Positions 12,089 to 59,852 of a DNA stretch of 64,000 nt are shown piece after piece. The stretch spans positions 1,304,501 through 1,368,500 of the forward strand of contig NC_092317.1 of NCBI RefSeq assembly GCF_036785885.1. Direction: 5' to 3'. The DNA comes from Coffea arabica (lineage: Eukaryota; Streptophyta; Magnoliopsida; Gentianales; Rubiaceae). Made by a program: the position numbers and the translations under genes. Each line of letters opens with the position of its first letter. Position 1 is the stretch's first letter. The notes beneath the pieces were generated by a model that saw nothing but the letters and a program-made list of their open reading frames with translations, did no database searches and had not been told where the DNA came from.

Positions 12089-12230
12089 TTGCCGTTGCCT
12101 TGGTAGTTACAAGTACGCGATGTCTGTTGAAGGACTCTAGAGCAGCACCTGGCTGTTTTCTGTTTTCCAGGAATTCAACTTCTCCACATGCTATTTATCA
12201 TTCTCGTCTTTAATGGGAATAAGGGGAAGT

Positions 12231-13289
12231 CAGGTTTTTGGACAAGTTTTTTACCTACTAGTTTTTTAACAACTTTTGCTACAGGAACCCCAAAAAACTT
12301 CTCAAAATTTTTTACCTACACACTTAAAATATCCAAAACACAAAAAAAAATAAAAAATCCCTTCTCCTTCTCTTCTTCTTCTTCCTCCCCCACCCCAACC
12401 CACCACCACCTCTGCCGCCGCCAATCTTCTTTTTTTTTTTTTTGCCCTTTTTCCCTCTCCCCCTCTTCCTCCCTTGCCATCCTCCATCTGTCTTGTTTTT
12501 TTTCTCTCTGCGTCTCCCCCACTCCTCCCCCCACCACTTCCCCTTCCCTTTTGGCTGATCTGATCGCTAGACCAGATCGCACGGGGGAGGGTGAGGGTGG
12601 CGGGGGAAGGGGAGGAGGGGGGAGAAGGAAAATTGCCAAAAACAAAAAATTTCATTTCGCTGCTTCATCTGCCGGCAAGAGCAAGGAGAGGAAACGGGAG
12701 GAGAAGGAGAGGAAAAATGTGAAAAAAAGAAAGGGACAGAGGGAAGATGAGAAGCAGGAAGGGGAACGGGGGAGGGGGTGGCGGGGGAGAGGGGAGGAAA
12801 GGGATGATGGGCATAGGGGGTGGCGGGGAAGGGAGTGGGAGGGATGGCGGCCCAAGAGGGGTGGCGGGCAGAGGGGGGGAATGGGGAAGGGAGTGGGAAG
12901 GGGGTGGCAGGGGAGAGGGGAGGAAAGGGGTGGCGGGGGAGGGAGAGGGAGGGGGGAGAGGAGAAAAGAAAAAAAAAAAGAAGAGAGGTGGTGCTGGAGG
13001 TGGGAGGCAGAGGTAACGGGGAAGGGGGAGGGGGAAGGAAGAAGAAGAAGAAGAAGAAGAAGAGAGGAAAGAAAAGAAAAAGGAAAGAAAGAAAAAGAAA
13101 AAGAAAGAAAAAAAAAAAGGAAAAAAAATTTTCACCTTACAAAAACTTCTACAAAATTTTTCACATTACAAAAACTTCTATAAAAAAGTTTTTCACCTTA
13201 CAAAAATTTCTACAAAAATTTTTCAAAAACTTCTACAGTGCACTACAATAAAGTTTTAGACAAACTCCTAAAAAACAGGTTCCAAACAG
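12231..13289. mobile_element. Non-autonomous DNA-transposon-like element with C/T-rich then A/G-rich core
   Basis: The ends are imperfect inverted repeats. The left end reads GGTTTTTGGACAAGTTTTTT; the complement of the right end reads TGTTTGGAACCTGTTTTTTA. Inside, AT-rich flanks carry repeated TTTTTCACCTTACAAAAACTTC-like units (three near 13130-13230). They enclose a pyrimidine-rich half (about 12360-12560) followed by a purine-rich half (about 12590-13120). It has no transposase. The long open frames across it are low-complexity artefacts. It starts 140 bp past the aminopeptidase stop and may overlap that gene's 3' end. The superfamily is uncertain (hAT-like termini possible). Confidence 0.55.
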
Positions 13290-13430
13290 GCCTTTAGTAG
13301 TGTAGTACTCTTTTTATCGAAACGGCAAGACTTTTGCTTATTAACCTTATCTCAGAAGACACCTCAAAAACCGGCAACTCTTGAGGAGCTCCCAGGGACT
13401 AATAAATCCAAACCCAACCCCCCCAGAAAC

Positions 13431-13441
13431 CGATGTGGGAT
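13431..13441 (-). promoter_or_regulatory. USE-like snRNA promoter motif, copy 1
   Basis: The minus strand reads ATCCCACATCG, an exact match to the plant snRNA upstream sequence element RTCCCACATCG. Exactly 24 nt downstream is TTTATT (plus strand 13401-13406), in a TATA-like position. In plants this spacing class (about 23-24 bp) marks RNA polymerase III snRNA-type promoters, whereas polymerase II types have about ten bases more. The TATA-like box is weak, so activity is unproven. Confidence 0.4.
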
Positions 13442-13654
13442 GGAAACCCCACAGGGGCAAGCCAGTAGGGCCGCCTGACTACCCAGTTCCTCTAGACCCC
13501 AGTATAACTCCCCTGCGTGTCCCCATCGTTTGTCTTTTTACCGAAACGGCAAGACTTTTGCTTATTAACTTTATCCCAAAAGACACCTCAAAAGCCGGCA
13601 ACTCTTGAGGAGCTCCCAGGGACTAATAAACCCAAACCCAACCCCCCCAGAAAC

Positions 13655-13665
13655 CGATGTGGGAT
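13655..13665 (-). promoter_or_regulatory. USE-like snRNA promoter motif, copy 2
   Basis: The second 150-bp repeat has the same exact ATCCCACATCG on the minus strand, again with 24 nt to TTTATT (plus strand 13625-13630). The conserved motif and spacing in both copies may simply reflect the duplication. Confidence 0.4.
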
Positions 13666-13701
13666 AGAAACCCTACAGGGGCAATTAGTAGTGTAGTACT
13701 C

Positions 13702-16860: not shown

Positions 16861-17949
16861 ATCGATTGATCTGCCTCATGACTGGAAATCAACCTTATCA
16901 TCAAGAATTATGCTGGACGCACAACTAGCATCCATCCTTCCATAGACTAACAAATAGTTCGCTTGTAAAGTTTTGATAGGTTCACCAAATGAGTTGCAGC
17001 CCACGGGAATGAGAAATGATGATGTTAGGAATTTTGCAGTTGGGATCCTAAGTGCTACTATTCCATGTCAAATACAGTGTTAATCCCACCTATCATGTGA
17101 GGCCAGTGAGGGTAGAAAAAATTTAAATAAACAGCATATAACAAGTTAAATAAACAGGACACTTAATATAAATATAAGTGGCACTAAGGATTTTATGTGG
17201 GAATTTTGTATGCCATAAATTTTGGTAGTAGTTTATTCACGGTTTAGGTGTGAAACAGGTTTTGGTAACGTACCAAGTAAATCTTGAATTGGTGGCTTTA
17301 AGAATTTATTAGCATGATCGGCGTTTATGTTTATGGATCAAATTGGACTGGCTGGTTGGAGCTGAGCTTGTAACCAGCTCATGCATCCTAAATTGAAGTT
17401 AACGCTCACAGTTGGCATATTGTCATATTATTGTTTGTAAAGCTTCAACATCATGGAAGTCTTCCAAGTCTCAATTAATACCAACTACTACCATTTTGTC
17501 ACATGTTGACCAATTCCCAACTCATCTTTTTGTTCTCCCTCAAAAATTTTCGGCAGAAAGCAGCTTGCCCCGGTGAAATTGCACTGGGTGACTAAAATAT
17601 CAAAGGATGCGGCCGCAAATGGCCAAATACACTTTGCTAACTACATGGTATTAACTCGAGAATGAGATATAACTTGTGTTTTTCATCTTTGTTTGAACTA
17701 AATAATCTGAACTTTTTAACTTCCTCGTCCTTCGCCACACTGATACATTTGTTCAGAGATAGCAATCTCATTCTTGACAGCAGACTCTTGTTAACATACA
17801 AATACACGCTATCAAAACACCAGTTAGTTGGCTTGCTGAACAAACTGCTGGTGTGCGCTACCACTCTTTACGCCCCCAGGCAAAAATAAATCAATCAATC
17901 AATAAATCAGAATTTAATATATTTTTTTTCCATGAAAACTTGAAAACTT
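16861..17949. other. Intergenic region, converging gene ends
   Basis: Lies between the 3' end of the p38-related gene (+) and the 3' end of the proline-rich gene (-). A short GC-richer patch at 17557-17650 follows a good acceptor and could be a last exon of the upstream gene, but this is not secure. Nothing else is recognised. Confidence 0.35.
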
Positions 17950-18750
17950 TCAAATATCAGTTGGGCCTGAACCTGGGCCGAGGTTAGAAAAGCCCACTCC
18001 GTGTCTTTTGTTCATGGAATCTATCTTCTCAAGCTTCAACCCGGCCCGAAATCTGCTGATGAAGCTCTCAGCTTTTGAATCCACGTCCGGGCTCGGACAG
18101 AACAATGGTGACGCCGCGAAGGGCGTCATATCACCTCCGTCAGCAGCAGCTGTGGGCGTGCCATCCGATTCCACGTCATCAAGATCCGGAGACCCACTCC
18201 GTGAGCTCAGGTTGCTATTTACCCGCACATAGTCACCTTGAAGTACAAACTTCCACGCCGGAGATTTGAAGAACGGCGGAGGAGGCGGCGGGGGAGGTAT
18301 GGGAACTAGTGGAGATTCTCCGCCACTATTTGAATTACCTTCCTCACTGTCAAAGCTTCTCACTTTCACTGGTTGCAGAGCTTTTTGCGTGGGCTGGTGT
18401 CTGGAAGGAAGCTGCGGAATGGGAACTGAAATGACTGTATGTGTTGTCTTTCCTTTGGATTTCTTCGATGCGAACAAATTCTGCAAGACGGAGGGTGGCG
18501 GCGGCGGCGGAGGAGGAGGAGGAGGAGATTGTGGTGGTAGTTGAAGATGGAGAGGTGGCATTTGAGGCTCGTTAAGCAAAGCATCAAAGTTTTCAACACT
18601 TTTTTGCCTCTGCCTTTTCTTCTTCTTCTTATGGTAAAGAGAATTCAAGAAATCCTTGGTTGCATTTCCCCCAGTTCTTTTCTTCTCACTTTTGCCACTC
18701 TTTTGATCCACAAATTGCGGCAGCGGCGGCGGCGGTGGAGGAGGAGGAGG
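17950..18750 (-). CDS. Proline-rich DUF761-type protein, 3' part of a gene split by a retrotransposon
   Basis: This is the C-terminal portion of the gene whose start lies at 31859. It encodes a run of prolines, then a basic lysine-rich stretch, further polyproline blocks, and a C-terminal motif FISRFRAGLKLEKIDSMNK. That motif is typical of the plant DUF761 or 'hydroxyproline-rich glycoprotein family' proteins. The stop is at 17950-17952. The frame is continuous with the other half across the target-site duplication, so before the insertion the host exon encoded about 603 residues. In this allele the 12-kb insert separates the DUF761 end from its promoter and start codon. The function of the family is unknown; a membrane-anchored structural or signalling role is only a guess. 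Confidence 0.75.
   Translation of the reverse strand, partial: PPPPPPPPPLPQFVDQKSGKSEKKRTGGNATKDFLNSLYHKKKKKRQRQKSVENFDALLNEPQMPPLHLQLPPQSPPPPPPPPPPPSVLQNLFASKKSKGKTTHTVISVPIPQLPSRHQPTQKALQPVKVRSFDSEEGNSNSGGESPLVPIPPPPPPPPFFKSPAWKFVLQGDYVRVNSNLSSRSGSPDLDDVESDGTPTAAADGGDMTPFAASPLFCPSPDVDSKAESFISRFRAGLKLEKIDSMNKRHGVGFSNLGPGSGPTDI
18746..18750. repeat. Target-site duplication, left copy
   Basis: GGAGG directly before the TGTGAGG start of the left LTR, matched by GGAGG directly after the ACA end of the right LTR at 30904-30908. Five bases is the normal Ty3/gypsy duplication length. The target is a (GGA)n proline-coding microsatellite, so slippage could hide a base, but both junctions agree. Confidence 0.85.
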
Positions 18751-21700
18751 TGTGAGGACCCGCAAATTTCCTACTTTTTTCCTCAAAAATGCCTTTTATT
18801 TGAAAATTATTATTTATTAAGGCCCCCTACCTCATTATATCACACTAAGTGTAAATAAACCTAGAAAATAAGGTTTTACGCTTTGGTTTCAAGTTTTGAG
18901 CAAAATTAGGGTTTTTGCGATTTTTTCCGCCGGATGAATTTTCGGTACTGGCCAAGGATCAATTTGATGATTAAAAGTGACTCTTAAGTGAGAAATAATA
19001 TGTGAGTAGTAGCAATGATATAAGGTTAGTGAATGGGAAGTAAAAACCCTAGTACGTGAGTTTTTAAGAAACGGCGCGAACCGGCGGGTCCCGCGCATTA
19101 CCGATTGAACGCACCACTTGACCACCATTTTTCTTACCCAACAAGTTTGTTGACTTTTGCACATAATATCTTCTCTCTTGGCAGCATGTTGACCGAAAAT
19201 TGGTGGCTAAGAAAGGCAAGAAAGAAAGAGAAAAAGAAAGGGTGGTGGTGGTGACAAGTGTCACCACCTCATGGCTTCTTACCCAAGACCATTACCAACC
19301 ATATAACCTTAACACTTAGCCAATTCTTCCTCATTTCTGCTGGAGCTGGCCGAGAGCATCAAGGAGGAAAAACTCCAAGGGAAATCTTTCATTTCATCTC
19401 CAAATCCAACAAATAAGTGAGGAATCGAGCGAAGTAAACCGATTAAACTTGCTTTCTAGTGACTAGCTAGTGAGTGGTGGTGTGATTCTTGAAGGGGAGA
19501 GCTTGTGCTACTCTTGGTGACTTTTATTCAAGGTAAGAGAGTTTATCTCTCCAAGTTTTACATCTAATCTTGTTAAATTAAGTTTAGTAGGTGATTATAG
19601 TGGTGAGATTATGGATGATTAGCATGATTTAGAGGTTTTCCCCAATTTATTTGATGAACTAGGGTTTCTGATTTTCTGCTCAATGTGATGTATGATGCAT
19701 GAATGTTGTAATTAAGGTTATATAAGGTTGTTTAGTGGTGAATAGAACCAGAAATTTGAGGAATTTACACTTAGAGCTAAAAATTCCAGATTTCTGGAAA
19801 ATTGCCCAAGCATTCTGTCCGAAATTGTACCTATATGTTAGAGGCCGAATTGGCCTTTGGTCAAAGAAGGAAAGTTGTAGAGAATGGTGTTTTATAGGTG
19901 CCTATAAAATTTCAGCTCAATCGGAGCAACGCAGAACGTGAAAAGTCCAAAATACCCCTACTGTTTTAAGAATTCCCCAGCAGTCCGTTTCTTCAGTTCA
20001 GTCCAGTTTATCACGATTTTTGACTAGGATCCCTTCTGATTTAGCTCTGGGCCAAAACATAAAAGTTGTAGTGCTCTGAAGTAGCTTTAAAACGCCTCAA
20101 AGAAAACCTGATTCGGACTTGTGTACACTGAGTTAGGTTCATTACAGTGTTCTGCGTTTAAACAACCGACGAACTGGTTTCTGGTTTAGTAATCTGAGAT
20201 TTTGACTAAGTTACATTAGGAACTGGACTACGTGACCTTCATGAATGTTGTAGCTCTGTGTCTTAGCTTCGAAACGGCGTAGGTTTCGTTTTAATCTGAT
20301 AAGCGTAGCCTCGGGTATGGTATTACCGCATTTGTACGTCAAATCTGTCTTGAACTAAATTGCGTTTCTGCACTTGTACTTGATGCGATTCTTGTTGTTA
20401 TGATATTGTGAGCCTATGGAACGGCTCTTGACATAAATTGCTTGTTTGTATGATGTTGGGATGTTGTTGAAGAAAAATAATGAAGCCTAAATGGCTGGAA
20501 ATTAGGTAAACACAAAGGGCATGCTGCCCAAATTTTTACTCGAGGTCTAGAAAACTATCTTTGCGACTTGAGTGAAGGTTAAGTGATTATCACTTGAACT
20601 ATCGAGGACCTTTGCCACTTGTTTAGGACTTGGCCGAACTTGTACCCTTAGGAAAATGATATGAATCACTACGAAACCGTTTTACTTGCACTTTTGACTC
20701 AAGAGTCATATTCAAGCAAAAATGTTATCAAATTTTCCAGTTTAAAGAGCGAGCAACTATTTCACGACTCTTCTCAAGTGAATTTCAATTTCTTGATTCT
20801 TATCGAACGAAACGCTTAAGTTTTGAACCTTGGTTGATTTCAAAGTTCTCAAGTAAAGTTTTATCGCAGATTTGGACTCCCAACCCGGAGTACCACCTCG
20901 ACGCGAAAACTAGAAGCACTATTGTGGTGAGTGCTTCCAAATATCCGATTGTACTTGATATGTGTACTCCCTACTTGACTTGTGTGATTACATGACAATG
21001 AATGAAAAGGCAAGGGTGTACTTTATCGCACTTGCCCTAATATGACCTGTTCTTGCTATTGATCATACTTGACTTGTTGTACATGTACTTGAATTGTATC
21101 TTGCCTGGAATTCCAGAAACCCTGTGGCTAGTTAATCGAGTCGAGCCGGCAAGGGCCTGGTCGATTAGATAACAAACCCTGGGTCACTTGTAATGTCGAG
21201 TGGAGTGTTATCTCCTCGACTAACGGTATACTCGAGTATTACCACCCATGTTTATATGGCGTGCGGGCCCGGAATAGGGGGTGAATCGGTGGACGGAAAT
21301 TGGCGTGTAGTGGAGTTTATTTGGACTTGAAATTACTTGAAAGTTGACGGAGTGTCAACTACCACTTGACCAAGCTGGAATGGAGCCGTAACATGAATAC
21401 CGTATCCTTATATGTGAATGTGCATCTAATACTACTTGACTAGCTGAAGTACTATTTCCTTGATTTGACTTGTTTGCTCGTCATTTCACTTTTATTTTGC
21501 TATAACTTGGTTGTTGCCCAATTTGATATTTGGGAACTTCACTGAGCTTTGGCTCACCCCGTTAGTTTGTTTTCCTTACAGGGGTACGAGTAACGCGAGA
21601 GACTTGATAAAGACTAGTGTAGCCTTTTGTTTTGACTTTTGAATTTTGGTTTTGTACTCGCGCTATTCCCCGAACGAAACATGTTGTACTTGGATTGTAT

Positions 21701-21903
21701 ACGTTTTGGTACTAGTTGGTGTATTAAGACTTTGTACCTGATTCCTATCGATGTAAACTATAAGTTTGAATCGTGAATATTATTTATGGTGCATGGTTGT
21801 GTATATATGATTCGATTGAGATAGTGAGTGAGTCCTGGCGAGAGCTGGGCAGGCGGTCCGCCGAACCCTTTGGTACGCCTTAGGGAGAGGTGGGGTCGTC
21901 ACA
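18751..21903 (+). repeat. 5' LTR
   Basis: 3,153 bp, starting TGTGAGGACC and ending GGGGTCGTCACA, with TG...CA ends. It is nearly identical to the copy at 27751-30903. Short open frames inside it are not supported as genes. Confidence 0.95.
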
Positions 21904-21905
21904 GG

Positions 21906-21918
21906 TGGTATCAGAGCC
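21906..21918 (+). other. Primer binding site of the retrotransposon
   Basis: TGGTATCAGAGCC lies two bases after the 5' LTR. It is complementary to the 3' end of plant initiator methionine tRNA, the usual primer of Ty3/gypsy elements. Confidence 0.9.
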
Positions 21919-22068
21919 TAGGTTTGAATTGATCGGGATAGTTTGAGTGCTTGACTTGATAGGCTAGGGTTTTATTATCGGCTAGGGTTTTATTATTGCG
22001 TTTAGCCTTAGCCTTGTTTTGCGCTTGATGTGTACTTACCTTTGCAATGTTATTTGCAAACTTAGGTG

Positions 22069-22767
22069 ATGGCAGACACTGACTCTTCTGGGGGTGCTGG
22101 ACCGTCCCAGCCTGCACCTATTGACATACCGACCGAGATACCTACTGAGGTGCCTGAGGTGCCTGAGGTGCCTACTGACGCACCTACTGACGCTTCCGTG
22201 GTCGAGCCATATCTAGTGGGCCCTGTATGTCGCGTGATCACATACCAGGAGGTTCCCGGCGGGCCAGTGCAGCGGTGGTCCCCAGCGCGCAAGATCCGGC
22301 GCTGCGATTGCTGGAAGACCTACTCTTACCCTGACCGAGTAGTGCTTGCTATAGATGACGATCGGAGACGATTGGGTAGCACCAATCGTAGGTGCTTTGC
22401 GGAGATAGAGCGTCTCCAGGCTACTCTCCGAGATCAGGGAGCTCGGATACGCGAGTTGGAGGCCGCAGTTCTGGCGGAGCAGCAGCAGTCTGATGCTTAC
22501 CGTGATCAGGCTCATGCGGTGACTGGACGTTTGATGCACATAGTTGGACACATACGAGACCGGACCGACCACATCCTGACTGAGTGCGAGGCACTTGTAG
22601 AGGATGTGATGCAGGACTTGGCCGAGGAGGGCCAAGCCCCTGTAGCTCCTGCCGCTCCCGGTGGCCCTGAGGAGGATCCAGAGGAGGATCCTGAGGAGGA
22701 CATGGAGGAGGAGCCGAGCGCGTCCTCGGAGTCAGTTGGGTCGGCGTCTAGCCAGACCACTTGTTAG
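22069..22767 (+). CDS. Extra reading frame of the retrotransposon, upstream of gag
   Basis: 232 residues starting MADTDSSGGAGPS; the ATG at 22069 is preferred. It has an N-terminal Pro/Thr/Val-rich part, a basic WSPARKIRRCDCWK segment, a likely coiled coil (about residues 105-145) and a strongly acidic tail with repeated EEDP. I recognise no known domain. It lies between the primer binding site and gag, where some plant gypsy elements carry an accessory frame. It could be structural or a recruited fragment; function unknown. Confidence 0.6.
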   Translation: MADTDSSGGAGPSQPAPIDIPTEIPTEVPEVPEVPTDAPTDASVVEPYLVGPVCRVITYQEVPGGPVQRWSPARKIRRCDCWKTYSYPDRVVLAIDDDRRRLGSTNRRCFAEIERLQATLRDQGARIRELEAAVLAEQQQSDAYRDQAHAVTGRLMHIVGHIRDRTDHILTECEALVEDVMQDLAEEGQAPVAPAAPGGPEEDPEEDPEEDMEEEPSASSESVGSASSQTTC

Positions 22768-23061
22768 GATCGGGGTTTTAGGAGGTTTTGTGGGCTAGTT
22801 AGGAACATAGTGGGACGACATGTCTTCTTTTGTTTTTGTTTTAGACGTGTCCTGGTGGATGTAAATATCTTTTGTTCTATGTTCCTCGGCTGTTATAGCC
22901 TTTGACTACGTGACTTGTTGGCCTGTATATACGACTTGTTTGATATGTAAATAAAGTGCTTGTTTCTTACGTGTTTATTTGCCTCTAGTTATGTTGTTGC
23001 AACGCGATATATGAGTCGTACCTTACCCCGTTTATATGTTCTAGTTGGTTGACTCTCAAAC

Positions 23062-26000
23062 ATGGAAGATAAAAGGAGTCGGACCAAGAAAACTAATCGA
23101 GAACGCGGTTCCAGGCGAGGCCGTGAGGGTGAGAAAGTACAGGAACCGGTGCCTGAACCGATAGAGGAGAGGGAGGCAGCGGTTGAACAGCAACCTGAAC
23201 CCCAGACTGCCGGGGGAGATCAGGTGGCCACTGCCATCCAACAGATGACTAATATTTTGACTCGGTTAGTGGAGCAACAGGGTCAAGGGTCTGTAAATCA
23301 ACCTAGAGACCCTGATTCGGGGCAAGATAGAGCCTTGGAGAGATTCCAGAAGTTCTCTCCACCCAAATTTTTAGGAGGACCAGACCCGTATGAAGCTGAG
23401 AAATGGCTGGAGGCCATGGTAAATATCTTTGCTGCCCTAAACTACACTGAGGAGAGACAAGTCCAATTTGCCGTATTCCAATTTGAAGGGCCAGCTAGGG
23501 CTTGGTGGAATGTAGTGAGGGCCAAGTGGGAGAGAGAGGAAACTGCCTGGACTTGGCTAAACTTTGTACGGGACTTCAACGAAAAATACCTTCCACCCAT
23601 CGTCCAGGAGAAGAGAGAGGACGAATTCATTAAACTCCGTCAGGGGTTGATGAGTGTAACTGAGTATGAGACTCAGTTTACCAAGTTGTCCAAATTTGCT
23701 CCCGAACTGATAGCTACGGAGCCGAGAAAAGTACGGAGGTTTATACAAGGATTAAATGTGGAATTACAAGAAGCCTTAGCAGCGGTCCAAATCAATACTT
23801 TTACGGAGGTTCTGGAGAAGGCCACGAGGATAGAAACTGCTAGGACGCAAGTAAGGAATTTCCACGCTAAGCGGAAAGGGGCACCTAGTGGAGCCCAAGG
23901 GTCGGTACGAGGCGAGCGAAGCATGCCACCCGCTAAATCCGGTCGTGGAGCTGGAAGTGGACGATTTTCGAACACGTTTAGGGGCAGTGCTCCGAGAGGG
24001 AATGCCCAGAGGGGAGGCCAGGGCGGTAGAAGTCAAGGTAGAGGTTTTACTCAGGGAGGTCAAACCTCCACTCCCCGAGTGACATGTGGGTATTGTGGAA
24101 AATTGAACCACACTGAGGACGAGTGCTGGAGAAAGGCTCGGAAGTGCTTGAGGTGCGGAAGTGCGGATCATCAGATGGTCAATTGTCCGCTAATCAATGA
24201 CACTCAGTCGACTGCCAGGTCAAACCCGAAGCCGACTACTGCTGGAGGGGCTAGGTCGAGGGTACCGGCCAGAGTGTACTCGCTAGATCAAACAACTGTG
24301 CCTGAACCAACCAGGGTGATAGAAGGTACAATCCCTGTTTTTCACCGGTTAGCTAGAATTTTGATAGATCCCGGTGCTACTCACTCTTTTGTTAATCCTG
24401 CATTTATGCTTGGCATTGACTCGAAAGTTGAAAGGTTACCTTATGACTTAGAGGTAAGAACACCTACAGGTAATCAAATCTTGCTTGCGAATGAGGTGTA
24501 TAGGAATTGTGATATTTGGATTGGCGAACGGAAATTGGTAGTGGACCTTATTAGTCTAGCCATTAAGGGGTATGATGTTATCCTAGGTATGGATTGGCTA
24601 GCTCACTATCATGCTCGGGTAGATTGTAAGATGAAAGTGGTCGAATTTGGTATACCAGGAGAGGCAACCCTAAAGCTTGATGTGAGGGGTATGATAGCCT
24701 CTTCTGCACTTATTTCGGGTATGAGGGCTAGGAAGTTGCTTAGTCGTGGGGCTCGTGGTTACTTAGCTTTCCTAATTAACACTCCGGGTGAAAAGACTAA
24801 GTTGGAAGACATGCCAGTAATCAGTGAATACCCGGACGTATTTCCGGAAGAATTGGGGTCTTTGCCACCCGAAAGGGAGATTGAATTTAAGGTTGATTTA
24901 GTACCCGGAACCACTCCCATTTCTAAAACTCCTTATCGTATGGCACCTGCTGAGCTTAAGGAATTAAAGGTGCAATTACAGGACTTGCTAGAACGGGGGT
25001 TCATACATGAGAGCGAGTCGCCGTGGGGAGCTCCAGTTCTATTTGTTAAGAAAAAGGACGGGAGTTTAAGGTTGTGCATTGACTATCGAGGATTGAATGC
25101 AGTAACCATTAAGAATAAATATCCTTTGCCCCACATAGATGAGTTATTTGATCAGTTACAAGGGGCTGTAGTGTTTTCCAAGTTGGATCTGCGACAAGGG
25201 TATTATCAATTGAGAGTTAAGAAGGAGGATGTGCCAAAAACGGCGTTTAATACTCGATATGGGCATTTTGAGTTCGCAGTGATGCCTTTTGGTTTAACCA
25301 ATGCCCCAGCAGCATTCATGGATCTGATGCATCGAGTGTTCAAACCTTACTTGGATAGGTTTGTAGTGGTGTTCATTGATGACATCTTGGTGTATTCGAG
25401 GTCAAGGGAGGAGCATGAACAACATTTGCGGATAGTATTGCAAACCTTGAGAGAGCACCAACTGTTTGCTAAGTTCAGTAAGTGTGAATTTTGGTTGGAA
25501 GAGGTGGCGTTTTTAGGTCATATAATTTCGAAAGATGGCCTTGCTGTAGACCCGGCGAAAGTGGAAGCTGTGGCTAAATGGAAACGGCCAGAAAATCCCA
25601 CAGAGGTTCGAAGTTTTCTAGGCTTAGCAGGATACTACCGCAGATTTATAAAGAATTTCTCGAGGATTGCAGGACCCTTGACTAACCTGACCAAGAAACA
25701 AGGAAAATATATTTGGGATGTTAAGTGTGAAAGTAGCTTTCAAGAGCTTAAGAAACAATTGACTATGGCTCCAATTTTAGCTTTGCCCAGTGGAAAGGAT
25801 AGTTATACGGTTTATACTGATGCTTCGAAAGAAGGGCTAGGATGTGTGTTGATGCAGAATAGGAATGTGATTGCCTACGCATCCCGAAAGTTAAAAACTC
25901 ATGAGCAAAATTACCCGACCCATGACTTGGAACTTGCAGCTGTAGTGTTCGCTTTGAAGAAATGGCGACATTATCTCTATGGTGTAACTTTCGAGGTTTA

Positions 26001-27858
26001 TACGGATCATAAGAGCCTTAAGTATCTGTTTTCTCAGAAGGAGTTAAATCTAAGACAACGTCGGTGGGTAGAGTTCTTAGAGGATTATGATTGTACAATT
26101 AACTATCATCCTGGAAAGGCCAACGTTGTAGCAGATGCTTTAAGCCGGAAGGCTCAATTGGCAAGTTCTATAGTGAGAGAGTGGAGCCTATTGGAAGATG
26201 TATGTGAGTGGAAACCTCGTTTGGAACCGGAAAAGGTGATTTTTGGAAATATTGAGGCGAAATCGGCATTGATGGAACGAATCAAAGAGGGCCAAGTGAA
26301 GGATCCAATAGTGCAGAAGTGGGTAGAGAGAGTGAAGAGAGGGGAGTTACCTAATTTCAATCTAAGCCCTGATGGAATTTTAAAGTTTCGAAATCGTGTC
26401 GTGGTACCTAGGGATGAGGAATTGAAAAGGGAGATTTTAGAGGAATCACATTGCTCTAGGTATACGGTGCACCCAGGGAATAATAAAATGTACCAAGATC
26501 TTAGGAATCTGTATTGGTGGGAGAAAATGAAGGCGGAGATTGCCCAGTTTGTGCAAAAATGTCTTACGTGCCAACAGGTAAAAGCTGAGCATCAAAAGCC
26601 GTCAGGTTTGTTACAGCCTTTAGAGATCCCTGAGTGGAAGTGGGAGCACATAACGATGGATTTTGTGTCAGGGTTGCCACGCACACAAAAGGGGCATGAT
26701 GCAATTTGGGTGATAGTGGATCGATTGACTAAGACTGCACATTTTCTGCCAGTGAACATGAAATATCCTTTGGAGAAACTTGCTAAAATTTATATGGATG
26801 AGGTAGTAAGATTACATGGGGTACCAGTGAGTATTGTATCGGATAGAGACCCCAGGTTTGTATCTCGATTTTGGCAGAGGTTACAAGAGGCTCTAGGAAC
26901 TAAGTTGAGTTATAGTACAGCATATCATCCACAAACTGATGGACAATCTGAGAGAACTATCCAAACTCTTGAGGATATGTTGAGAGCCTGTATTGTGGAT
27001 TTTAAAGGAAGTTGGAGCCAATACTTGACTTTGGTTGAATTCGCGTATAACAATAGTTACCATTCCTCTATTCAAATGGCTCCATATGAAGCCTTGTATG
27101 GACGACGGTGTCGATCCCCAATCCATTGGGATGAAGTAGGAGAGAGAAAAGTAATAGATCCAGCTACTATACCATGGGTTGAGGAAGCCTATGAAAAGGT
27201 GAAAGTGATCCGCCAGAGACTTCAGACAGCCCAAAGCCGTCAGAAAAGCTATGCCGATCATAGGAGGAAAGACTTGGAGTTTGAAATAGGAGATAAGGTG
27301 TTTCTTCGGATCACACCATTGAAGGGAAAGATTAGATCCGGAAAAGGGAAAAAGTTGCAACCACGATATATAGGACCTTTCAAGGTGCTACAACGAATAG
27401 GAAAGGTGGCTTATCGACTTGAGTTACCAGCTAGCTTGTCTAGGATCCACGATGTCTTTCACGTCTCTTTGCTTAAGAAATACCATCCGGATCCGACTCA
27501 CATTTTGCCACCCGAAGATGTTGAACTTGACGAGTCTTTAACCTATGAAGAACGACCTATTCAAATACTGGATCGAAAGGTGAAGGACTTGAGAAACAAG
27601 CAAATTCCTTTAGTAAAGGTACTATGGAAGCATCATGAAGTGGAAGAAGCAACTTGGGAGCTAGAAACGGATATGCAAGAAAAGTATCCTGGCCTGTTCG
27701 CGACAAAAGGTATGAATTTCGAGGTCGAAATTCTTTTAAGGGGGAGAGGATGTGAGGACCCGCAAATTTCCTACATTTTTCCTCAAAAATGCCTTTTATT
27801 TGAAAATTATTATTTATTAAGGCCCCCTACCTCATTATATCACACTAAGTGTAAATAA
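23062..27858 (+). CDS. gag-pol polyprotein of the retrotransposon
   Basis: One frame of 1,598 residues. Gag includes a capsid-type region (about residues 80-270) and two CCHC zinc knuckles (about 342-377). Protease has DPGATHSF near residue 433. Reverse transcriptase has FIDDILVYS near 771. RNase H has YTDASKEG near 917. Integrase has an HHCC finger (about 1130-1180) and the D,D,E core from about 1199. A chromodomain-like segment lies at about 1500-1550. Gag and pol are fused in a single frame, as in most plant chromoviruses, so cleavage by the element protease is expected. The frame runs on through the polypurine tract and ends inside the 3' LTR. The element looks whole. Confidence 0.93.
27738..27750 (+). 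other. Polypurine tract of the retrotransposon
   Basis: AAGGGGGAGAGGA lies immediately before the TG of the 3' LTR, in the position where plus-strand priming occurs in LTR retrotransposons. Confidence 0.9.
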
Positions 27859-30800
27859 ACCTAGAAAATAAGGTTTTACGCTTTGGTTTCAAGTTTTGAG
27901 CAAAATTAGGGTTTTTGCGATTTTTTCCGCCGGATGAATTTTCGGTACTGGCCAAGGATCAATTTGATGATTAAAAGTGACTCTTAAGTGAGAAATAATA
28001 TGTGAGTAGTAGCAATGATATAAGGTTAGTGAATGGGAAGTAAAAACCCTAGTACGTGAGTTTTTAAGAAACGGCGCGAACCGGCGGGTCCCGCGCATTA
28101 CCGATTGAACGCACCACTTGACCACCATTTTTCTTACCCAACAAGTTTGTTGACTTTTGCACATAATATCTTCTCTCTTGGCAGCATGTTGACCGAAAAT
28201 TGGTGGCTAAGAAAGGCAAGAAAGAAAGAGAAAAAGAAAGGGTGGTGGTGGTGACAAGTGTCACCACCTCATGGCTTCTTACCCAAGACCATTACCAACC
28301 ATATAACCTTAACACTTAGCCAATTCTTCCTCATTTCTGCTGGAGCTGGCCGAGAGCATCAAGGAGGAAAAACTCCAAGGGAAATCTTTCATTTCATCTC
28401 CAAATCCAACAAATAAGTGAGGAATCGAGCGAAGTAAACCGATTAAACTTGCTTTCTAGTGACTAGCTAGTGAGTGGTGGTGTGATTCTTGAAGGGGAGA
28501 GCTTGTGCTACTCTTGGTGACTTTTATTCAAGGTAAGAGAGTTTATCTCTCCAAGTTTTACATCTAATCTTGTTAAATTAAGTTTAGTAGGTGATTATAG
28601 TGGTGAGATTATGGATGATTAGCATGATTTAGAGGTTTTCCCCAATTTATTTGATGAACTAGGGTTTCTGATTTTCTGCTCAATGTGATGTATGATGCAT
28701 GAATGTTGTAATTAAGGTTATATAAGGTTGTTTAGTGGTGAATAGAACCAGAAATTTGAGGAATTTACACTTAGAGCTAAAAATTCCAGATTTCTGGAAA
28801 ATTGCCCAAGCATTCTGTCCGAAATTGTACCTATATGTTAGAGGCCGAATTGGCCTTTGGTCAAAGAAGGAAAGTTGTAGAGAATGGTGTTTTATAGGTG
28901 CCTATAAAATTTCAGCTCAATCGGAGCAACGCAGAACGTGAAAAGTCCAAAATACCCCTACTGTTTTAAGAATTCCCCAGCAGTCCGTTTCTTCAGTTCA
29001 GTCCAGTTTATCACGATTTTTGACTAGGATCCCTTCTGATTTAGCTCTGGGCCAAAACATAAAAGTTGTAGTGCTCTGAAGTAGCTTTAAAACGCCTCAA
29101 AGAAAACCTGATTCGGACTTGTGTACACTGAGTTAGGTTCATTACAGTGTTCTGCGTTTAAACAACCGACGAACTGGTTTCTGGTTTAGTAATCTGAGAT
29201 TTTGACTAAGTTACATTAGGAACTGGACTACGTGACCTTCATGAATGTTGTAGCTCTGTGTCTTAGCTTCGAAACGGCGTAGGTTTCGTTTTAATCTGAT
29301 AAGCGTAGCCTCGGGTATGGTATTACCGCATTTGTACGTCAAATCTGTCTTGAACTAAATTGCGTTTCTGCACTTGTACTTGATGCGATTCTTGTTGTTA
29401 TGATATTGTGAGCCTATGGAACGGCTCTTGACATAAATTGCTTGTTTGTATGATGTTGGGATGTTGTTGAAGAAAAATAATGAAGCCTAAATGGCTGGAA
29501 ATTAGGTAAACACAAAGGGCATGCTGCCCAAATTTTTACTCGAGGTCTAGAAAACTATCTTTGCGACTTGAGTGAAGGTTAAGTGATTATCACTTGAACT
29601 ATCGAGGACCTTTGCCACTTGTTTAGGACTTGGCCGAACTTGTACCCTTAGGAAAATGATATGAATCACTACGAAACCGTTTTACTTGCACTTTTGACTC
29701 AAGAGTCATATTCAAGCAAAAATGTTATCAAATTTTCCAGTTTAAAGAGCGAGCAACTATTTCACGACTCTTCTCAAGTGAATTTCAATTTCTTGATTCT
29801 TATCGAACGAAACGCTTAAGTTTTGAACCTTGGTTGATTTCAAAGTTCTCAAGTAAAGTTTTATCGCAGATTTGGACTCCCAACCCGGAGTACCACCTCG
29901 ACGCGAAAACTAGAAGCACTATTGTGGTGAGTGCTTCCAAATATCCGATTGTACTTGATATGTGTACTCCCTACTTGACTTGTGTGATTACATGACAATG
30001 AATGAAAAGGCAAGGGTGTACTTTATCGCACTTGCCCTAATATGACATGTTCTTGCTATTGATCATACTTGACTTGTTGTACATGTACTTGAATTGTATC
30101 TTGCCTGGAATTCCAGAAACCCTGTGGCTAGTTAATCGAGTCGAGCCGGCAAGGGCCTGGTCGATTAGATAACAAACCCTGGGTCACTTGTAATGTCGAG
30201 TGGAGTGTTATCTTCTCGACTAACGGTATACTCGAGTATTACCACCCATGTTTATATGGCGTGCGGGCCCGGAATAGGGGGTGAATCGGTGGACGGAAAT
30301 TGGCGTGTAGTGGAGTTTATTTGGACTTGAAATTACTTGAAAGTTGACGGAGTGTCAACTACCACTTGACCAAGCTGGAATGGAGCCGTAACATGAATAC
30401 CGTATCCTTATATGTGAATGTGCATCTAATACTACTTGACTAGCTGAAGTACTATTTCCTTGATTTGACTTGTTTGCTCGTCATTTCACTTTTATTTTGC
30501 TATAACTTGGTTGTTGCCCAATTTGATATTTGGGAACTTCACTGAGATTTGGCTCACCCCGTTAGTTTGTTTTCCTTACAGGGGTACGAGTAACGCGAGA
30601 GACTTGATAAAGACTAGTGTAGCCTTTTGTTTTGACTTTTGAATTTTGGTTTTGTACTCGCGCTATTCCCCGAACGAAACATGTTGTACTTGGATTGTAT
30701 ACGTTTTGGTACTAGTTGGTGTATTAAGACTTTGTACCTGATTCCTATCGATGTAAACTATAAGTTTGAATCGTGAATATTATTTATGGTGCATGGTTGT

Positions 30801-30903
30801 GTATATATGATTCGATTGAGATAGTGAGTGAGTCCTGGCGAGAGCTGGGCAGGCGGTCCGCCGAACCCTTTGGTACGCCTTAGGGAGAGGTGGGGTCGTC
30901 ACA
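27751..30903 (+). repeat. 3' LTR
   Basis: 3,153 bp, the same length as the 5' LTR and almost identical to it. It is followed directly by the right target-site duplication. It carries the last 36 codons of the gag-pol frame at its left end. Confidence 0.95.
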
Positions 30904-30908
30904 GGAGG
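30904..30908. repeat. Target-site duplication, right copy
   Basis: GGAGG, matching 18746-18750. The host proline-rich frame resumes here on the minus strand. Confidence 0.85.
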
Positions 30909-31859
30909 CGGTGTGGCTGGTTCTGAGATGGGTTCGTTGTTTTCCATCTGACTATCCCTTCTTTTTCTCCTTCTCTCCCTTCGATGAGCAACACTTTGAT
31001 GGACTCGCTTTGGCTTTTCATTATCCAGTGGTGGTGAAGCAGGCCGCAGTAGTGGTGATTCTGGCGGTGGAGATGGTGGAGCTGGCGGAGGAGAAGATGG
31101 AGGGGGAGTAGCTGGAGTGTTTGAGGGTCGTTCCTGAGGATGAGGGTACGCAAATTTATCCACATAAAAGTTCTTGCTTTCCAGCTGGGAATCATCAAAT
31201 GTGTATTTCCAGCTTCGTCGACGATGAAGCTCGCCGGTGCGGGAGTACCGGGGAGTTTCGATTATCATATCATCATAACACATCCACGGATCATCCCCGG
31301 AGGCCAATCTTGAGGAGGCTACAAGTAGATCAGGATATGAGCTATATGTCCTCCTCAGCAGTCCACCTTGGTTATCAGTACTAGAAGTACTGTTGTAGGC
31401 CGTCTGATCTGAATATCCATGCCATTGAAGAGGATTTGACTGATGCGTTTTTTCAGCTTCAATAGGGGAGTAATTATACCATCCCTGTGCGGTTGATGGA
31501 TTTGATTTTCGGGTTTCAGTTCTGGTAGTAGTAGGAGTAGTATCATGATACTCCTCAAAGTTTCTATCTTCATTCTTGTTTCTACTGAGGAATCCAAAGA
31601 CTAATGCAACTAGAACTAATACCAAATTAAGAGAATCCCAGCTTTTCTTAACATTATTTGGCCTAAAGATTTGAGAAGAGAAAGAAATGGTTGCAGGGAC
31701 TACCAAAACCAAGAAGGAAACAGCTGTTATCAGCAGAACGGAGACTAAAAGTCCAGAGCTTAAGAAGAAAGAGGATAGGCCGTGGCGAAATCGGCGGACA
31801 CGGCCGCGATTGCTGGTGCTTGGTACCCAAAAGGGGGTCAAGTCTTCCCCATCTTCCAT
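30904..31859 (-). CDS. Proline-rich DUF761-type protein, 5' part of a gene split by a retrotransposon
   Basis: N-terminal portion of the same host gene as 17950-18750. The ATG at 31859 (MEDGEDLTPFWVPSTS) is preferred over one 60 bases upstream, because family members start with a short soluble segment. Two hydrophobic segments follow (SSGLLVSVLLITAVSFLVL and LVLVLVALVFGFLS), typical of the DUF4408-like membrane anchor. Then come a Ser/Thr-rich region, a PPPSSPPPAPPSPPPESP block and a basic patch (RRERRRKRR). Host sequence ends in a PPP run at the insertion point. The frame then reads into the retrotransposon LTR for about 40 foreign codons and stops at 30780. Any product would keep the membrane anchor but lose the DUF761 end. 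Whether this is the normal allele or a mutant or heterozygous one cannot be told here. Confidence 0.75.
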
Positions 31860-52695: not shown

Positions 52696-53600
52696 TGCAG
52701 ATACACTTTAAAAAATGGAAGCACCTGAATGCAACCTTGAAGAATCTTCTGAGCTAGTTCTTCAAAAGTGGCTACCTGATTATTGCTTGTATAGATCAGA
52801 TACGCTTGGGCATCTTGCCCTGCAGGACATTTTTCTTTCTCTCTGCTTTTCCATTTTGGGACAGTGTCCTGAAATAATCTAGACCTCGTAGTAACTAATC
52901 TTGTGCATGTGCACACTCCAAATATGGGGTGAGCCTGACAGGTGCACTTAAACCCTAGAATATTTGAACTCAAGACTCGAGTAATATAACCAACGTCTTG
53001 GATATCTATTGCACTTTCCTGGGGCTTCTAAGACTTCATTTATGTTGCATCAAGACTTGTGATTTAACTCTTGCAAGATAAATTTTCCCTCTGTATGCTT
53101 CTTTAAGTCATTTAGATAAATTAATCCTAATGTTTTCCTTTTGTATGCTCAAGTTATGGTAAATGATCGCATAAATCTTCAATGAGATTTCCTTAGAATC
53201 TTGCATACCATAAATTGTCAGCATCAATTACATTCGAATACTTAGAATAAGAGTGATATTTTGAGCACTTGCCCTTCTATGAGCTTCAGTGCACAATAAA
53301 AACAACATAAGATGAAAGTTTCCACGTCAATGAGACAATAGATTCTTTCATGAAATGTGATGAAGGACTTCAAGTATGCACACAAAGCTACTTAGAGCTG
53401 ACAGTCAAAGGTACTCTTATGCAGCTTCCGGCATTATATTTTTCTGCCAATTTACAAATTACAGGTTGGCTATTAGCAATATGAAATTCCATCAATAAAC
53501 ATAACTATCGGGGCCAAAGGCAACGGCTCACTCACTGTTGGCAATATACATTCTATGAAGAGATCAAGTGCTCAAACAACCGCTACTGAACTGACTAATA
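52696..53600. other. Intergenic region between converging kinase and methyltransferase genes
   Basis: Contains the 3' flanks of both genes. No exon, RNA gene or clear element is seen. Short open frames here have no recognisable motifs. Confidence 0.4.
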
Positions 53601-56600
53601 TCACTTCATTGCAGGGTGCACTGAAAGCTGGCTGAAAATGGCACGTATCCAACGCCTAACCACAAAAACCAAACTATGGTTAAAGGAAAAGACACCAATT
53701 TTAGAAGACAATGGTACTGCACCATCAAGATACTGTTTCTCTAAATCACGAAGCTAAAGTTGTCAAAAATGGGAATAGAAGGACAAGAGAGAATCACAAA
53801 AGTGAAATTAAAAACATCCATGCATTTTCAACAGATAAATTGTGCATATTTGAGGGTGCAGTTGCATATGTACTTCAGCAAATTCATGACTAACAGATGT
53901 TATAATTCTTTCCGGGAATCTAAATATTGCAATTTGACATGCCAAGAACCAACCAATCTTCATACATTGCCAAAAGAATAAGAATGTTAGAGTTAACGTA
54001 ATTTCCTTTCAAACCCCTATGTGCAAAAGCTTCAAACTTGAGAGATTGGCAATTAAGACTAAGGCAACCTTGAAAAAAATTATAAATTAAATGGACACCT
54101 CGAAATTTCGATATTCTTGGAACGATTCTCAATTTTTCTGCAATATGTACTGATATCCACAATGCTGAAGCCAGCTCTCTCAAACAAGGATGACAAGAAA
54201 TCCTCTGAGAAATAAAATGCACACTGTGGACAGATGAACGTTAGTAGGGTTTGCACAAGCACTAGATTAACAGACAAGACATACATTGCAGATCCAGTAC
54301 ATAGTACTTACAGTACCATCTCCACGGAAGCAATAGTTATCGTCAATTATTTGGTTTCTATTCTGCAATTTCACCTGAGATAATGGAAATGGTTGAAGAA
54401 TTTTGTTGCAATAGTAGAGCTTGGCAATATGCCTCAGAAGATTGTATGACCATGGCAATGGGAGGGGAGGGAACATGAAGGTAAGAACACTTGCATGGCA
54501 TAAATTCTATTGCCCATTCACATGGTTGTGAAGGGAATAGTGTTAGCCAGCTACCACACATTGTCTAAAGTGATTGAAGTGTCAAGCAAACCTAGTGGCT
54601 TTTCTTAAACTTAAATACCAAAAGTAAATAATGTTAAAAAAAAAACGAAAATATTGCTTTAGCATAAATGAAAAGTGCAAAATGCAAGAGGGAAACAGAG
54701 CACTGAAAAGGAGAATTTACCTGGGCAGAATCTCCTAGAGCATAATCTCGTAAAAGAATGTGACCATCTGGCTGCAAAATGAGATATCCACCCAATGACA
54801 TTATGGTGAAAATCCACAAATAATAAATAGTGGGAAAAAAAGGCATTATTGAATATGTACCTTTAATACTCTCTTAAGGTTCTGCAACACCAAAGTCATT
54901 TTACTTGGTGTAACTGCAGACAACACAAAAATCTGCTTAAGAAGTTAGTTGATTATGCCAGCTTCTCTCCATAATATACCATTACAAGTACTATTCATTT
55001 AAAAATTGCTTGAAAGACTATAAGTGCCTTATCAGGCCATGCTTTTTCCTGATATGATGAAGAAGATAACAGCATTATATGTATAGATAATACTAGAGAT
55101 CTTGTCAGAAAATAAGCACTAAATAGATACCAAAACTGTGATATGGCCTACTTACCAAGGTAACAATGTCAACAGAAGAAGGTTTTATGTTAATGCAAAG
55201 GTCATCTTTTGCAACATCACAGACAAAAGCATTTACACAACCATTGTTGAAACTTGCATGTGACTGCATTCAGCAAAATAATCTATGTTATTCACACTAC
55301 TCATGACGATTATGATCTATACTAGCTTTAAAACCACGCATAATTCTATAAGGGAAATATTTTCACTAACATCTGCAATGATACTGTAACGTTACGCTAA
55401 TTTTGATGAATCACCATAACATGATCATACATGTAAATATTATTCTGATTATCATAATAGAAAAGGTTGATGCTGTAAGTGTCACACTGAATTTAATACT
55501 ACCAAACTTGGACAATTTCTGCTCCATCTGGGGACAAATTATTGCAATGATCTCTGCAAGTTCATTAACAGTAAAATGTCACGAGACACAACAAATTGGT
55601 ATTACAGATACATGAGGAAATTCCATTATTTCCACCCATAGGAGATCCTGTCACGAGACACAACAAATTGGTATTACAGATACATGAGGAAATTCCATTA
55701 TTTCCACTCATAGGAGATCCTTTCAGCTCATATGAGTTATGGTACTTCATTAATCAATAGAAGTCTACCTCTCTCTCGCTCCCCCCCCCCCTCCTACTGA
55801 TTCTTAGCTCCCTTCTCTCATGGCATGCGCGATTATTTGTTGGAACAGAAGATGTAAATATCCTCTCCCTTGTTTTCTCTCCCATTATAGTAGTTCTTTC
55901 TCAAAACTCATCAATTATGCTGTCTTTGGAACTTCAAATTCAACTACATACTATATCTGCTTACAGATAGATTAACGGCCATACTAAGAAATAACCTCTG
56001 TTACCCATAACCCTTACATGCAACCTTATTGCCTTGCATATTTGGTTCTAAATTCACATAAGGAGGAAAAGGCAACAGCATGTTTTTTTGGAGTTTGCAC
56101 TTAAATTATAACCGTACGAGAGAAAGACTCCAAGTTGAACAAAGGAAATCAGGTTGCATCTAGCTTATTGGTGACTTTTGAAATACTGAACTATGAAAAG
56201 TTACATGTGAAAAAGGTCCATGACGGCAAGATTGAGGTTGAGTGACAAACCTTAACAAGACTGACAGCCTGAGGAGAGAAATCACAGGCATGAACAAATA
56301 TATTAGGGTATGCAGCAATAAGTGGGAAGATGGTATTCCCCGCTCCACAACCCACCTGTCAGTTACCCTATCAGCATCAAAACATATGCTGACTGTGATG
56401 AGTTAAAAAATAATAATAAAAAAGGCCCAAGATAGGGTGACTAAAGGGCCATTGAGTTACCTCCAAAACAACCTTTCTCTTTGGTGAATTTGTATCATTG
56501 ATATCATTATCACAGAAATATTGTCCCCAATCCTTCTGCAAGTAGTGCCTATCCTTAAAAAACTGTACATTTATTTGATGCACTTGAATTTAGACAACAA

Positions 56601-56918
56601 GCAAACATTTTTTAAAATACAAAGAACTAAAATGAGAGAGTAGTAATAGTAGAATAAAGGGGTGACCTTGTTCTTGTGGCGATGGTAGAATTTGTCCCAG
56701 TAATGAATGGCGTTTCTGCTGTAATGGTGTTCTACCTCAACTTCTTGTTTATCCAATTCCGCAGCAAGTAACAGCCCACATCTGGGGGTAGTAGAAAGTA
56801 GATGAGGGGTGCAAGTGGATGTCCGAGGAAAGGTTGTCACGGATAATAAATTTACAAAGTATGCTGTGCAAGTAGACATTCCTAAACCTTTGGAAATTGG
56901 AATGCACTGGCTGGCCAT
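53601..56918 (-). CDS. METTL2/6/8-type tRNA N3-methylcytidine methyltransferase
   Basis: Nine exons on the minus strand (56918-56667, 56562-56461, 56355-56251, 55263-55156, 54932-54861, 54771-54721, 54374-54312, 54223-54099, 53655-53601) encode about 310 residues in one frame. After a variable N-terminus rich in Ser/Thr comes the family block HYWDKFYHRHKNK, then FFKDRHYLQKDW. The SAM site is VLEVGCGAGNTIFPL, the acidic motif is HACDFSPQAV, and PDGHILLRDYALGD, DDNYCFRGDGT and YFSEDFLSSLFERAGF follow. These are the marks of the METTL2/METTL6/METTL8 group, which makes m3C in the anticodon loop of tRNAs. The N-terminal extension (about 75 residues, few acidic residues at first) could be an organelle targeting peptide, but this is not certain. 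The gene converges on the kinase gene. Confidence 0.88.
55577..55720. repeat. Tandem duplication of 72 bp in a methyltransferase intron
   Basis: Two adjacent copies starting TGTCACGAGAC at 55577 and 55649 differ at about one position, so the duplication is recent. It lies in the intron between the third and fourth coding exons of the methyltransferase gene. Confidence 0.8.
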
Positions 56919-57239
56919 TAATAAAGGGTCATTTCACATAACATAGCTACTTTTTAATTGAAACTGTTTATCTCATTCTCCATTCTTTCTTTTCATACTT
57001 CTCTCAACAGCCGAGCAATCACAATCCTCCTCATCCCTTACTTCACTCCTTCCTCCTCCCTCTCCTCCCTTCAAATCCACAAGATATCTGCAAAGGTTTC
57101 AGCAAGAATGAAGATATCTGGTATCTGGTGCAATGGTGCAGAATCCAGCCATAACCACGACAGCGGTGGCTGCTTTGATGGATAAGAGCGGTTCAAGATA
57201 GAGCTTCGTGGTGGATTTTTCTGTATTTATTATGTACGA

Positions 57240-57260
57240 AAGAGAGAGAGAGAGAGAGAA
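57240..57260. repeat. GA microsatellite
   Basis: About ten AG units in the region upstream of the methyltransferase gene. GA tracts are common in plant promoters and leaders. Confidence 0.75.
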
Positions 57261-57668
57261 AGGAGGGCTTTATGGCATTGGTGTAAGTTGAGAGGAGGAG
57301 GGAGCTCTACTTGGCTGTGGAGGTAAGACGAGAGAAAGAACCAGAGAAAATAAAAGGAAAGCAAGAAACCAAAGAAATAAGCCAGGATGGAAATAAAGCT
57401 GAATTATGTGTTTTCATTGTAGATTAATTGAAGAAAAGAAGAATTCTGTTCACTTCAACATCTTCTATTGATGTGTTTGGGACATAGAAGGATGACTGAA
57501 AACATTGGGGGAAAAAAAGGTCGTAATAAAGGTCGTTGGAGAATCTTAAAATTTTTATTTTTTACCAAATAATTTTGCAATCTTAATAAGGTTGTGAAGT
57601 AAATTACCCAGAAACCAAATATTTGTTCCCCGAAGAAAGAAAAAAAAATTTGCAAATAGACAAGAGTT

Positions 57669-57806
57669 GTGTTTGGATTACATTTTTTTAAATTTTTTGT
57701 AGGAAAATTATTGTAGCAATTTGATACACGTGAGATAAAAAATAATTGAAAAATATGTTCACGAAAAACATAACAAATTTTCTTTGAAAAATGGCTGTCC
57801 AAACAA
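57669..57806. mobile_element. Short MITE with TGTTTGGA termini
   Basis: A 138-bp AT-rich stretch with inverted ends: TGTGTTTGGATTACATTTTT on the left, and the complement of CTGTCCAAACAAG on the right. The inside (TTGTAGCAATTTGATACACG, then GAGATAAAAAATAATTG) is typical of small plant MITEs with such ends. No coding capacity; superfamily not assigned. Confidence 0.6.
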
Positions 57807-58064
57807 GACCTGTATTAACAATCCTCTGGAAAGAACCAGTCGTCACGCCCGCCATCCAACGAGGCCGAGAAAACATCACAGGCTGGAACCGGGGCCCATT
57901 TTTTTTTATGGTCAACCGGGCCCCATTTTATTTGCAAATGTCCCCACGCTTTTCTTTACAAACGCTAATCAATAAGCATACGCCTGCAGGGCTGGGGAAT
58001 CATTTCCTCTCTTTCTCTGAGAACCCTCCTCCGCCTCCGATCGCTTCCACTTCCCTCCACCCCG

Positions 58065-58079
58065 AAACCCTAACCCTAA
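58065..58079 (+). promoter_or_regulatory. Telobox upstream of TIM23
   Basis: AAACCCTAACCCTAA, an extended telobox, lies about 70 bp before the TIM23 ATG. Such motifs are common in promoters and leaders of plant ribosomal and mitochondrial biogenesis genes and support expression in dividing cells. Confidence 0.65.
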
Positions 58080-58148
58080 CTAGCTTTCTCTTAAGAGAGA
58101 AGGGAGAGCCGAACCAACGGAAAAAAAATAATAGAAAAATCATAAATC

Positions 58149-59811: not shown

Positions 59812-59852
<41 letters not shown>

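Follow-up and report, generated by a model that had tools for sequence, protein, structure and literature searches.

A young insertion of a probable chromovirus interrupts one of two homoeologs of a DUF761-type gene in Coffea arabica

Our in silico analysis of a 64,000-nucleotide stretch of the Coffea arabica genome (the window; contig C8, positions 1304501-1368500) concerns a gypsy-type retrotransposon with long terminal repeats (LTRs) that lies within the coding sequence of a gene of the DUF761 type. The explanation that we favor as a whole, and to which we assign a probability of roughly 90%, is that a Tekay/Del-like chromovirus inserted into the copy of this gene on the putative C. eugenioides-derived chromosome 4 (chr4e), that this copy probably lost its function, and that the counterpart on contig C7 would buffer the loss. 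Only one of the two homoeologs carries the insertion, and its partner on C7 is intact. Depending on the clock used, the insertion is about 50-220 thousand years (ka) old (point estimates).

Structure of the element and its target site

A complete LTR retrotransposon of 12,153 bp occupies positions 18751-30903 on the plus strand, in agreement with an earlier note on this DNA that had described a full-length element of about 12.15 kb with LTRs of 3,153 bp. Its two LTRs are long TG...CA direct repeats that align without any gap and are distinguished by four substitutions (one transition, three transversions) over 3,153 bp each; the description of the LTRs as near-identical and of the element as very young thus stands. 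A primer binding site, presumably of the initiator-Met-tRNA type, and a polypurine tract complete the structure. The features of the element and of the interrupted host gene are as follows:

17950..18750, minus strand: C-terminal half of the host gene with the DUF761 motif and the stop codon (sequence, Pfam PF05553)
18746..18750, strandless: GGAGG of the target site duplication next to the 5' end of the element (empty homoeologous site on C7)
18751..21903, plus strand: 5' LTR, TG...CA, 3,153 bp
21906..21917, plus strand: primer binding site TGGTATCAGAGC (sequence, just after the 5' LTR)
22069..22767, plus strand: extra open reading frame (ORF) of 232 codons between the primer binding site and gag (ORF list, Pfam, genome search)
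23062..27858, plus strand: single gag-pol frame, ending within the 3' LTR (Pfam search in three pieces)
27738..27750, plus strand: polypurine tract AAGGGGGAGAGGA (sequence, just before the 3' LTR)
27751..30903, plus strand: 3' LTR, 3,153 bp
30780..30903, minus strand: LTR-encoded tail, in which the frame of the N-terminal half runs antisense into the 3' LTR up to a stop codon at 30780-30782 (ORF list, frame comparison)
30904..30908, strandless: GGAGG of the target site duplication next to the 3' end of the element (empty homoeologous site on C7)
30909..31859, minus strand: N-terminal half of the host gene with its ATG at 31859, two hydrophobic segments, and a proline-rich stretch up to the break (sequence, hydropathy)

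A target site duplication at the element is matched by an empty site elsewhere in the C. arabica assembly that we searched (1,197,963,845 bases in 131 contigs). This empty site on C7 is base-exact: a single GGAGG is present, both flanks read straight through it, and the gene is unbroken over 587 codons. Since the C7 site carries a single GGAGG and exact flanks, the GGAGG duplication claimed previously is genuine, and a chance occurrence of this 5-mer within a GGA repeat can be dismissed.

The Pfam matches along the gag-pol frame are arranged in the order gag, protease, reverse transcriptase, RNase H, Integrase_H2C2, integrase core, and chromodomain, and hence contain the protease, reverse transcriptase, RNase H, and integrase succession of Ty3/gypsy elements. 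The Integrase_H2C2 match (65.6 bits) exceeds its Pfam cut-off, while that of the integrase core (rve; 29.4 bits) stays under its cut-off of 32.6; the chromodomain (PF00385; E 8.1e-5) is found at its expected position at the C-terminus of pol with 22.9 bits versus a cut-off of 25.1. The domain order supports the previous classification as a gypsy element, which is probably a chromovirus, with the rve and Chromo matches under their cut-offs, and from this layout and the long LTRs we presume a Tekay/Del-like affiliation. The extra ORF, which has an acidic C-terminal end, matches no Pfam family over the cut-off.

Copy counts for the family are lower bounds, since 40 of 15,671 first-look candidates were scored in the LTR search, and 40 of 603 in the search with the extra ORF. 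The 40 matches of the extra ORF are 84-100% identical to it, and identity is complete in three copies: the one studied here and those on C14 and C22. A search for one 120-bp pattern of the LTR, with no mismatch allowed, returned 19 hits, of which six are on the odd-numbered C13, five on C20, and two on each of C8, C12, C14, and C22; the copies on C12, C13, and C20 are 91-98% identical to the C8 LTR. The C14 copy is bordered by a CAAAC duplication, and its LTRs differ at six positions, corresponding to an age of 73 ka (27-159) at a rate of 1.3e-8. The C22 copy (C22:12892229-12904385) has four differences between its LTRs and flanks without a matching 5-bp duplication, for which reason it was left out of the dating; recombination between elements or a deletion may account for this. 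Family copies also occur in a row with a spacing of about 9 kb at C20:21823997-21836156, C20:21908287-21935109, and C16:18690478-18711655, which suggests tandem LTR-internal-LTR-internal arrays.

Chromodomain-bearing gypsy elements of the Tekay/Del type are known from Coffea, where, according to PMC13013560, Tekay is the most abundant lineage and has been inserting recently in C. arabica as well as in its parents. That report places Coffea Tekay elements mainly in pericentromeric regions, whereas the C8 copy interrupts a coding exon, about 1.32 Mb into a contig of 48.75 Mb; this gene-bearing location is less usual for the lineage. Insertion of a chromovirus into an exon is a known kind of event: the Lotus element LORE1 likewise enters exons, with 43 of 97 new insertions described as genic and 31 of these 43 as exonic (PMC2832683). 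While the LORE1 insertions arose de novo in regenerated plants, the coffee case is a single insertion that occurred naturally and whose age is read from its LTRs.

The interrupted DUF761 gene and the predicted effect of the insertion

Both halves of the host gene have remained open, with 318 whole codons upstream of the break (31859-30906) and 266 codons plus the stop codon downstream of it (18750-17950), close to the 320 and 265 in-frame codons given in the earlier note. When joined with one GGAGG they form a 583-residue open frame; the C7 frame is four codons longer (587), and all length differences between the two genes are whole codons. The C-terminal half belongs to the DUF761 family (PF05553; E 7.2e-10, 38.7 bits versus a cut-off of 22), and this match, together with the joined frame, confirms that the element sits in the coding exon of a DUF761-type gene. 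The N-terminal half matched no Pfam family at E 0.1; its hydrophobic segments fall within residues 26-65 and 73-94 (19-residue windows over 1.6). We also considered the DUF4408 family for the host gene and rejected it, as PF14364 found no match in either half at E 0.1, and a genome search with this family (150 of 269 candidates scored) returned 17 matches that do not include the host locus. A literature search for papers that pair DUF761 with DUF4408 found none.

Comparison of the two homoeologs yielded 17 nonsynonymous and 14 synonymous differences, i.e., a nonsynonymous divergence (dN) of 0.0128 and a synonymous divergence (dS) of 0.0347; the ratio of 0.37 (Fisher p 0.009) indicates that the gene was under constraint. 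A DNA probe from the N-terminal half has two matches in the genome, on C8 and C7, and a probe from the C-terminal half has long matches on the same two contigs in addition to five short ones (33-63 bp). An origin of the host locus as an old duplicate was rejected on the grounds that long DNA matches are confined to C8 and C7. At the protein level, a distant pair of paralogues was detected on C11 and C12 (31-46% identity in pieces), along with a weak match interrupted by stop codons on C19. The second intact copy of the gene that the earlier note had taken as a sign of an old duplicate does exist, as the C7 homoeolog; it shows, however, redundancy between partners and not an old, decayed duplicate.

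The insertion itself is of the ordinary kind. Integrase would have made a 5-bp staggered cut where the chr4e homoeolog encodes polyproline; until then this gene would have been one uninterrupted coding frame, and the element would have been integrated antisense to the gene. A host transcript is predicted to continue into the 3' LTR, which is antisense to it, and to encode a 359-residue chimera that retains the hydrophobic N-terminus and lacks DUF761. The chr4e homoeolog would consequently be a loss-of-function copy, with the C7 homoeolog carrying the function and buffering the loss. The 3' LTR points outward to the host promoter, and antisense transcription over the N-terminal half is possible.

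The C7/C8 pair and its probable subgenome assignment

C7 and C8 are collinear across the whole window, with 89-99% identity per aligned block longer than 300 bp, and this collinearity is broken by the element and by smaller unshared stretches. The full and the empty site are therefore homoeologs. Among the unshared stretches are one of about 1.48 kb present in C8 at about 12210-13692 and absent from C7, and one of about 0.8 kb restricted to C7 (C7:1318213-1319024; C8 counterpart near 17634-17648), which lies about 0.3-1.1 kb past the stop codon of the host gene and whose ends look by eye like an inverted pair.

At 53264-64000, and on to about C8:1370781, the two contigs are free of substitutions over 13,018 bp, with four insertions or deletions. 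The 1-kb bins before this tract are mostly 1-3% divergent (some up to 8%), low divergence sets in as early as 50012, and beyond the tract two stretches of 1.5 kb, at C8:1378501 and C8:1418501, are 98% and 95% identical. The tract would reflect either gene conversion or a short exchange between the homoeologs in the very recent past, or an artefact of gap filling during assembly.

Odd-numbered contigs probably represent the C. canephora and even-numbered contigs the C. eugenioides subgenome. Of the 17 PF14364 matches, 14 fall into seven neighboring odd/even contig pairs, one of them on opposite strands, and the other three have no partner. A probe for a caffeine-pathway methyltransferase, 175 residues long, matched C1 with 99% identity along residues 25-165, with further copies on C2, C17, C18, and other contigs. 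Four of the 20 fetched loci were compared: the exon on C1 is identical (138/138) to PDB 2efj and that on C17 (138/138) to PDB 2eg5, both of which we take to be C. canephora proteins, while one exon each on C2 and C18 is less alike. By this pattern, C7 would be chr4c (canephora) and C8 chr4e (eugenioides).

The earlier note had considered a heterozygous insertion, and a heterozygous diploid was likewise our first working reading. Two haplotypes of an outcrossing diploid could likewise show the collinearity of C7 and C8 and the 98% identity of the probes, but contig pairing and the methyltransferase exons, which indicated C. arabica, led us to drop this reading. In each of the two pairs that were checked, the exon with the exact PDB match is on the odd contig, and the mean homoeolog identity reported for another C. 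arabica assembly is 94.9% (PMC10805892). According to PMC11018527, a HiFi assembly was made from the di-haploid C. arabica line ET-39; the assembly searched here fits such a di-haploid allotetraploid and presumably represents this line. Since ET-39 is di-haploid, a heterozygous insertion is excluded for that plant. A full and an empty allele at one locus were not found; the empty site is on the putative homoeolog C7, and apart from C7 and C8 no full-length copy of the host gene was found. We thus regard heterozygosity as very unlikely. A chimeric or misjoined assembly, which the substitution-free tract about 22 kb away might recommend, is most improbable, as a misjoin would not yield a complete TG...CA element together with a duplication of 5 bp and an empty site that is exact to the base. 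That the insertion is tolerated, with the element removed from the transcript or the halves acting as separate genes, is compatible with their open frames; such frames are, however, expected by chance at the estimated age, and we consider the absence of a knockout very unlikely.

Several points weigh against the reading of a Tekay/Del-like insertion that inactivated the chr4e homoeolog. The loss of function is a prediction from sequence; the subgenome identity of C7 and C8 derives from contig order and two other chromosome pairs, and not from a chromosome 4 marker; and the element is Tekay/Del-like by layout, not by phylogeny. Against a jump after hybridization, among those scored, the near-identical copies (C8, C14, and C22) are all on even contigs, as are the six best matches of the extra ORF, the C8 copy included.

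Age of the insertion and its timing relative to hybridization

Each of the four LTR differences is private to one LTR of the C8 copy, with the other five LTRs compared carrying the other base, and they therefore arose after insertion. At a rate of 6.5e-9, which we take from grasses, the LTRs are 98 ka old (27-250), and scaling to the dS of the host gene and a parental split 4-6 million years (My) ago gives 146-220 ka (40-562). The rate of 1.3e-8, used for LTR elements in PMC11018527, leads to 49 ka (95% Poisson 13-125). About 1.1 substitutions are expected in the 1,752 bp of the host frame since insertion at the LTR-derived rate, and the probability that neither half acquired a nonsense or frameshift mutation is about 0.85-0.95 (shares of nonsense and indel mutations assumed). 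The halves are indeed intact, as the earlier note had observed in arguing that the gene had no time to decay, but as an independent sign of youth this is weak.

Polyploidy was dated to 350-610 ka in PMC11018527, the introduction of which also quotes earlier dates from 10 ka to 1 My. All point estimates of the insertion age are below 350-610 ka, which makes the element a candidate for a post-polyploid jump; on the published date, a jump after hybridization is likely. If polyploidy took place 350 ka ago, four or fewer substitutions have a probability of 0.0000 (as printed) at 1.3e-8, 0.0014 at 6.5e-9, and 0.12 with the dS-scaled clock, and at 610 ka of 0.003 or less with all three clocks; only the slowest, dS-scaled clock leaves 350 ka open. 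Also compatible with an inactivating insertion into the chr4e homoeolog is an event in C. eugenioides or its population before hybridization, carried in with the subgenome. The position of three out of three near-identical copies on one subgenome weakly favors such earlier activity, the six best extra-ORF matches share this position, and with polyploidy at about 20 ka, within the range of quoted dates, four or more LTR substitutions thereafter would have a probability of 0.08, 0.01, or 0.001 by clock. The low probabilities at 350 and 610 ka argue against this earlier insertion, which we consider a serious possibility short of an even chance.

Tentatively, and at close to even odds, we propose that a chromovirus of the eugenioides lineage was still transposing in the allotetraploid Arabica nucleus well after hybridization and that it silenced one of the two homoeologs of a conserved gene, where the insertion may still vary among accessions. 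Insertion polymorphisms of SIRE, Tekay, and TAT elements help to differentiate C. arabica accessions (PMC13013560, citing PMC11018527), and insertions that vary within Arabica have therefore already been reported in general. LTR elements not shared between the subgenomes, and thus likewise present in one homoeolog and absent from the other, were surveyed in PMC10805892; they are younger than shared ones, and by that account it could not be told whether they postdate polyploidy. Unlike this survey, the coffee case provides the gene hit, the exact empty site, and an age for one insertion. No published report of the C8 insertion was found in the titles and abstract starts searched, supplementary insertion lists being outside this search.

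What had been considered a possible heterozygous allele is corrected here to a homoeolog-specific gene break. It would represent gene loss by insertion in a young polyploid, for which PMC11018527 names excision as the main force. That report states that there is "no major evidence" of LTR mobilization after allopolyploidization, though a higher rate of LTR turnover comes up in its discussion; transposition after hybridization, if true, would be a concrete and datable case against the statement on mobilization. The insertion is a dated, base-exact marker for testing element movement before or after the origin of Arabica, and its youth makes it suited to asking whether such elements were mobile once the coffee hybrid existed.

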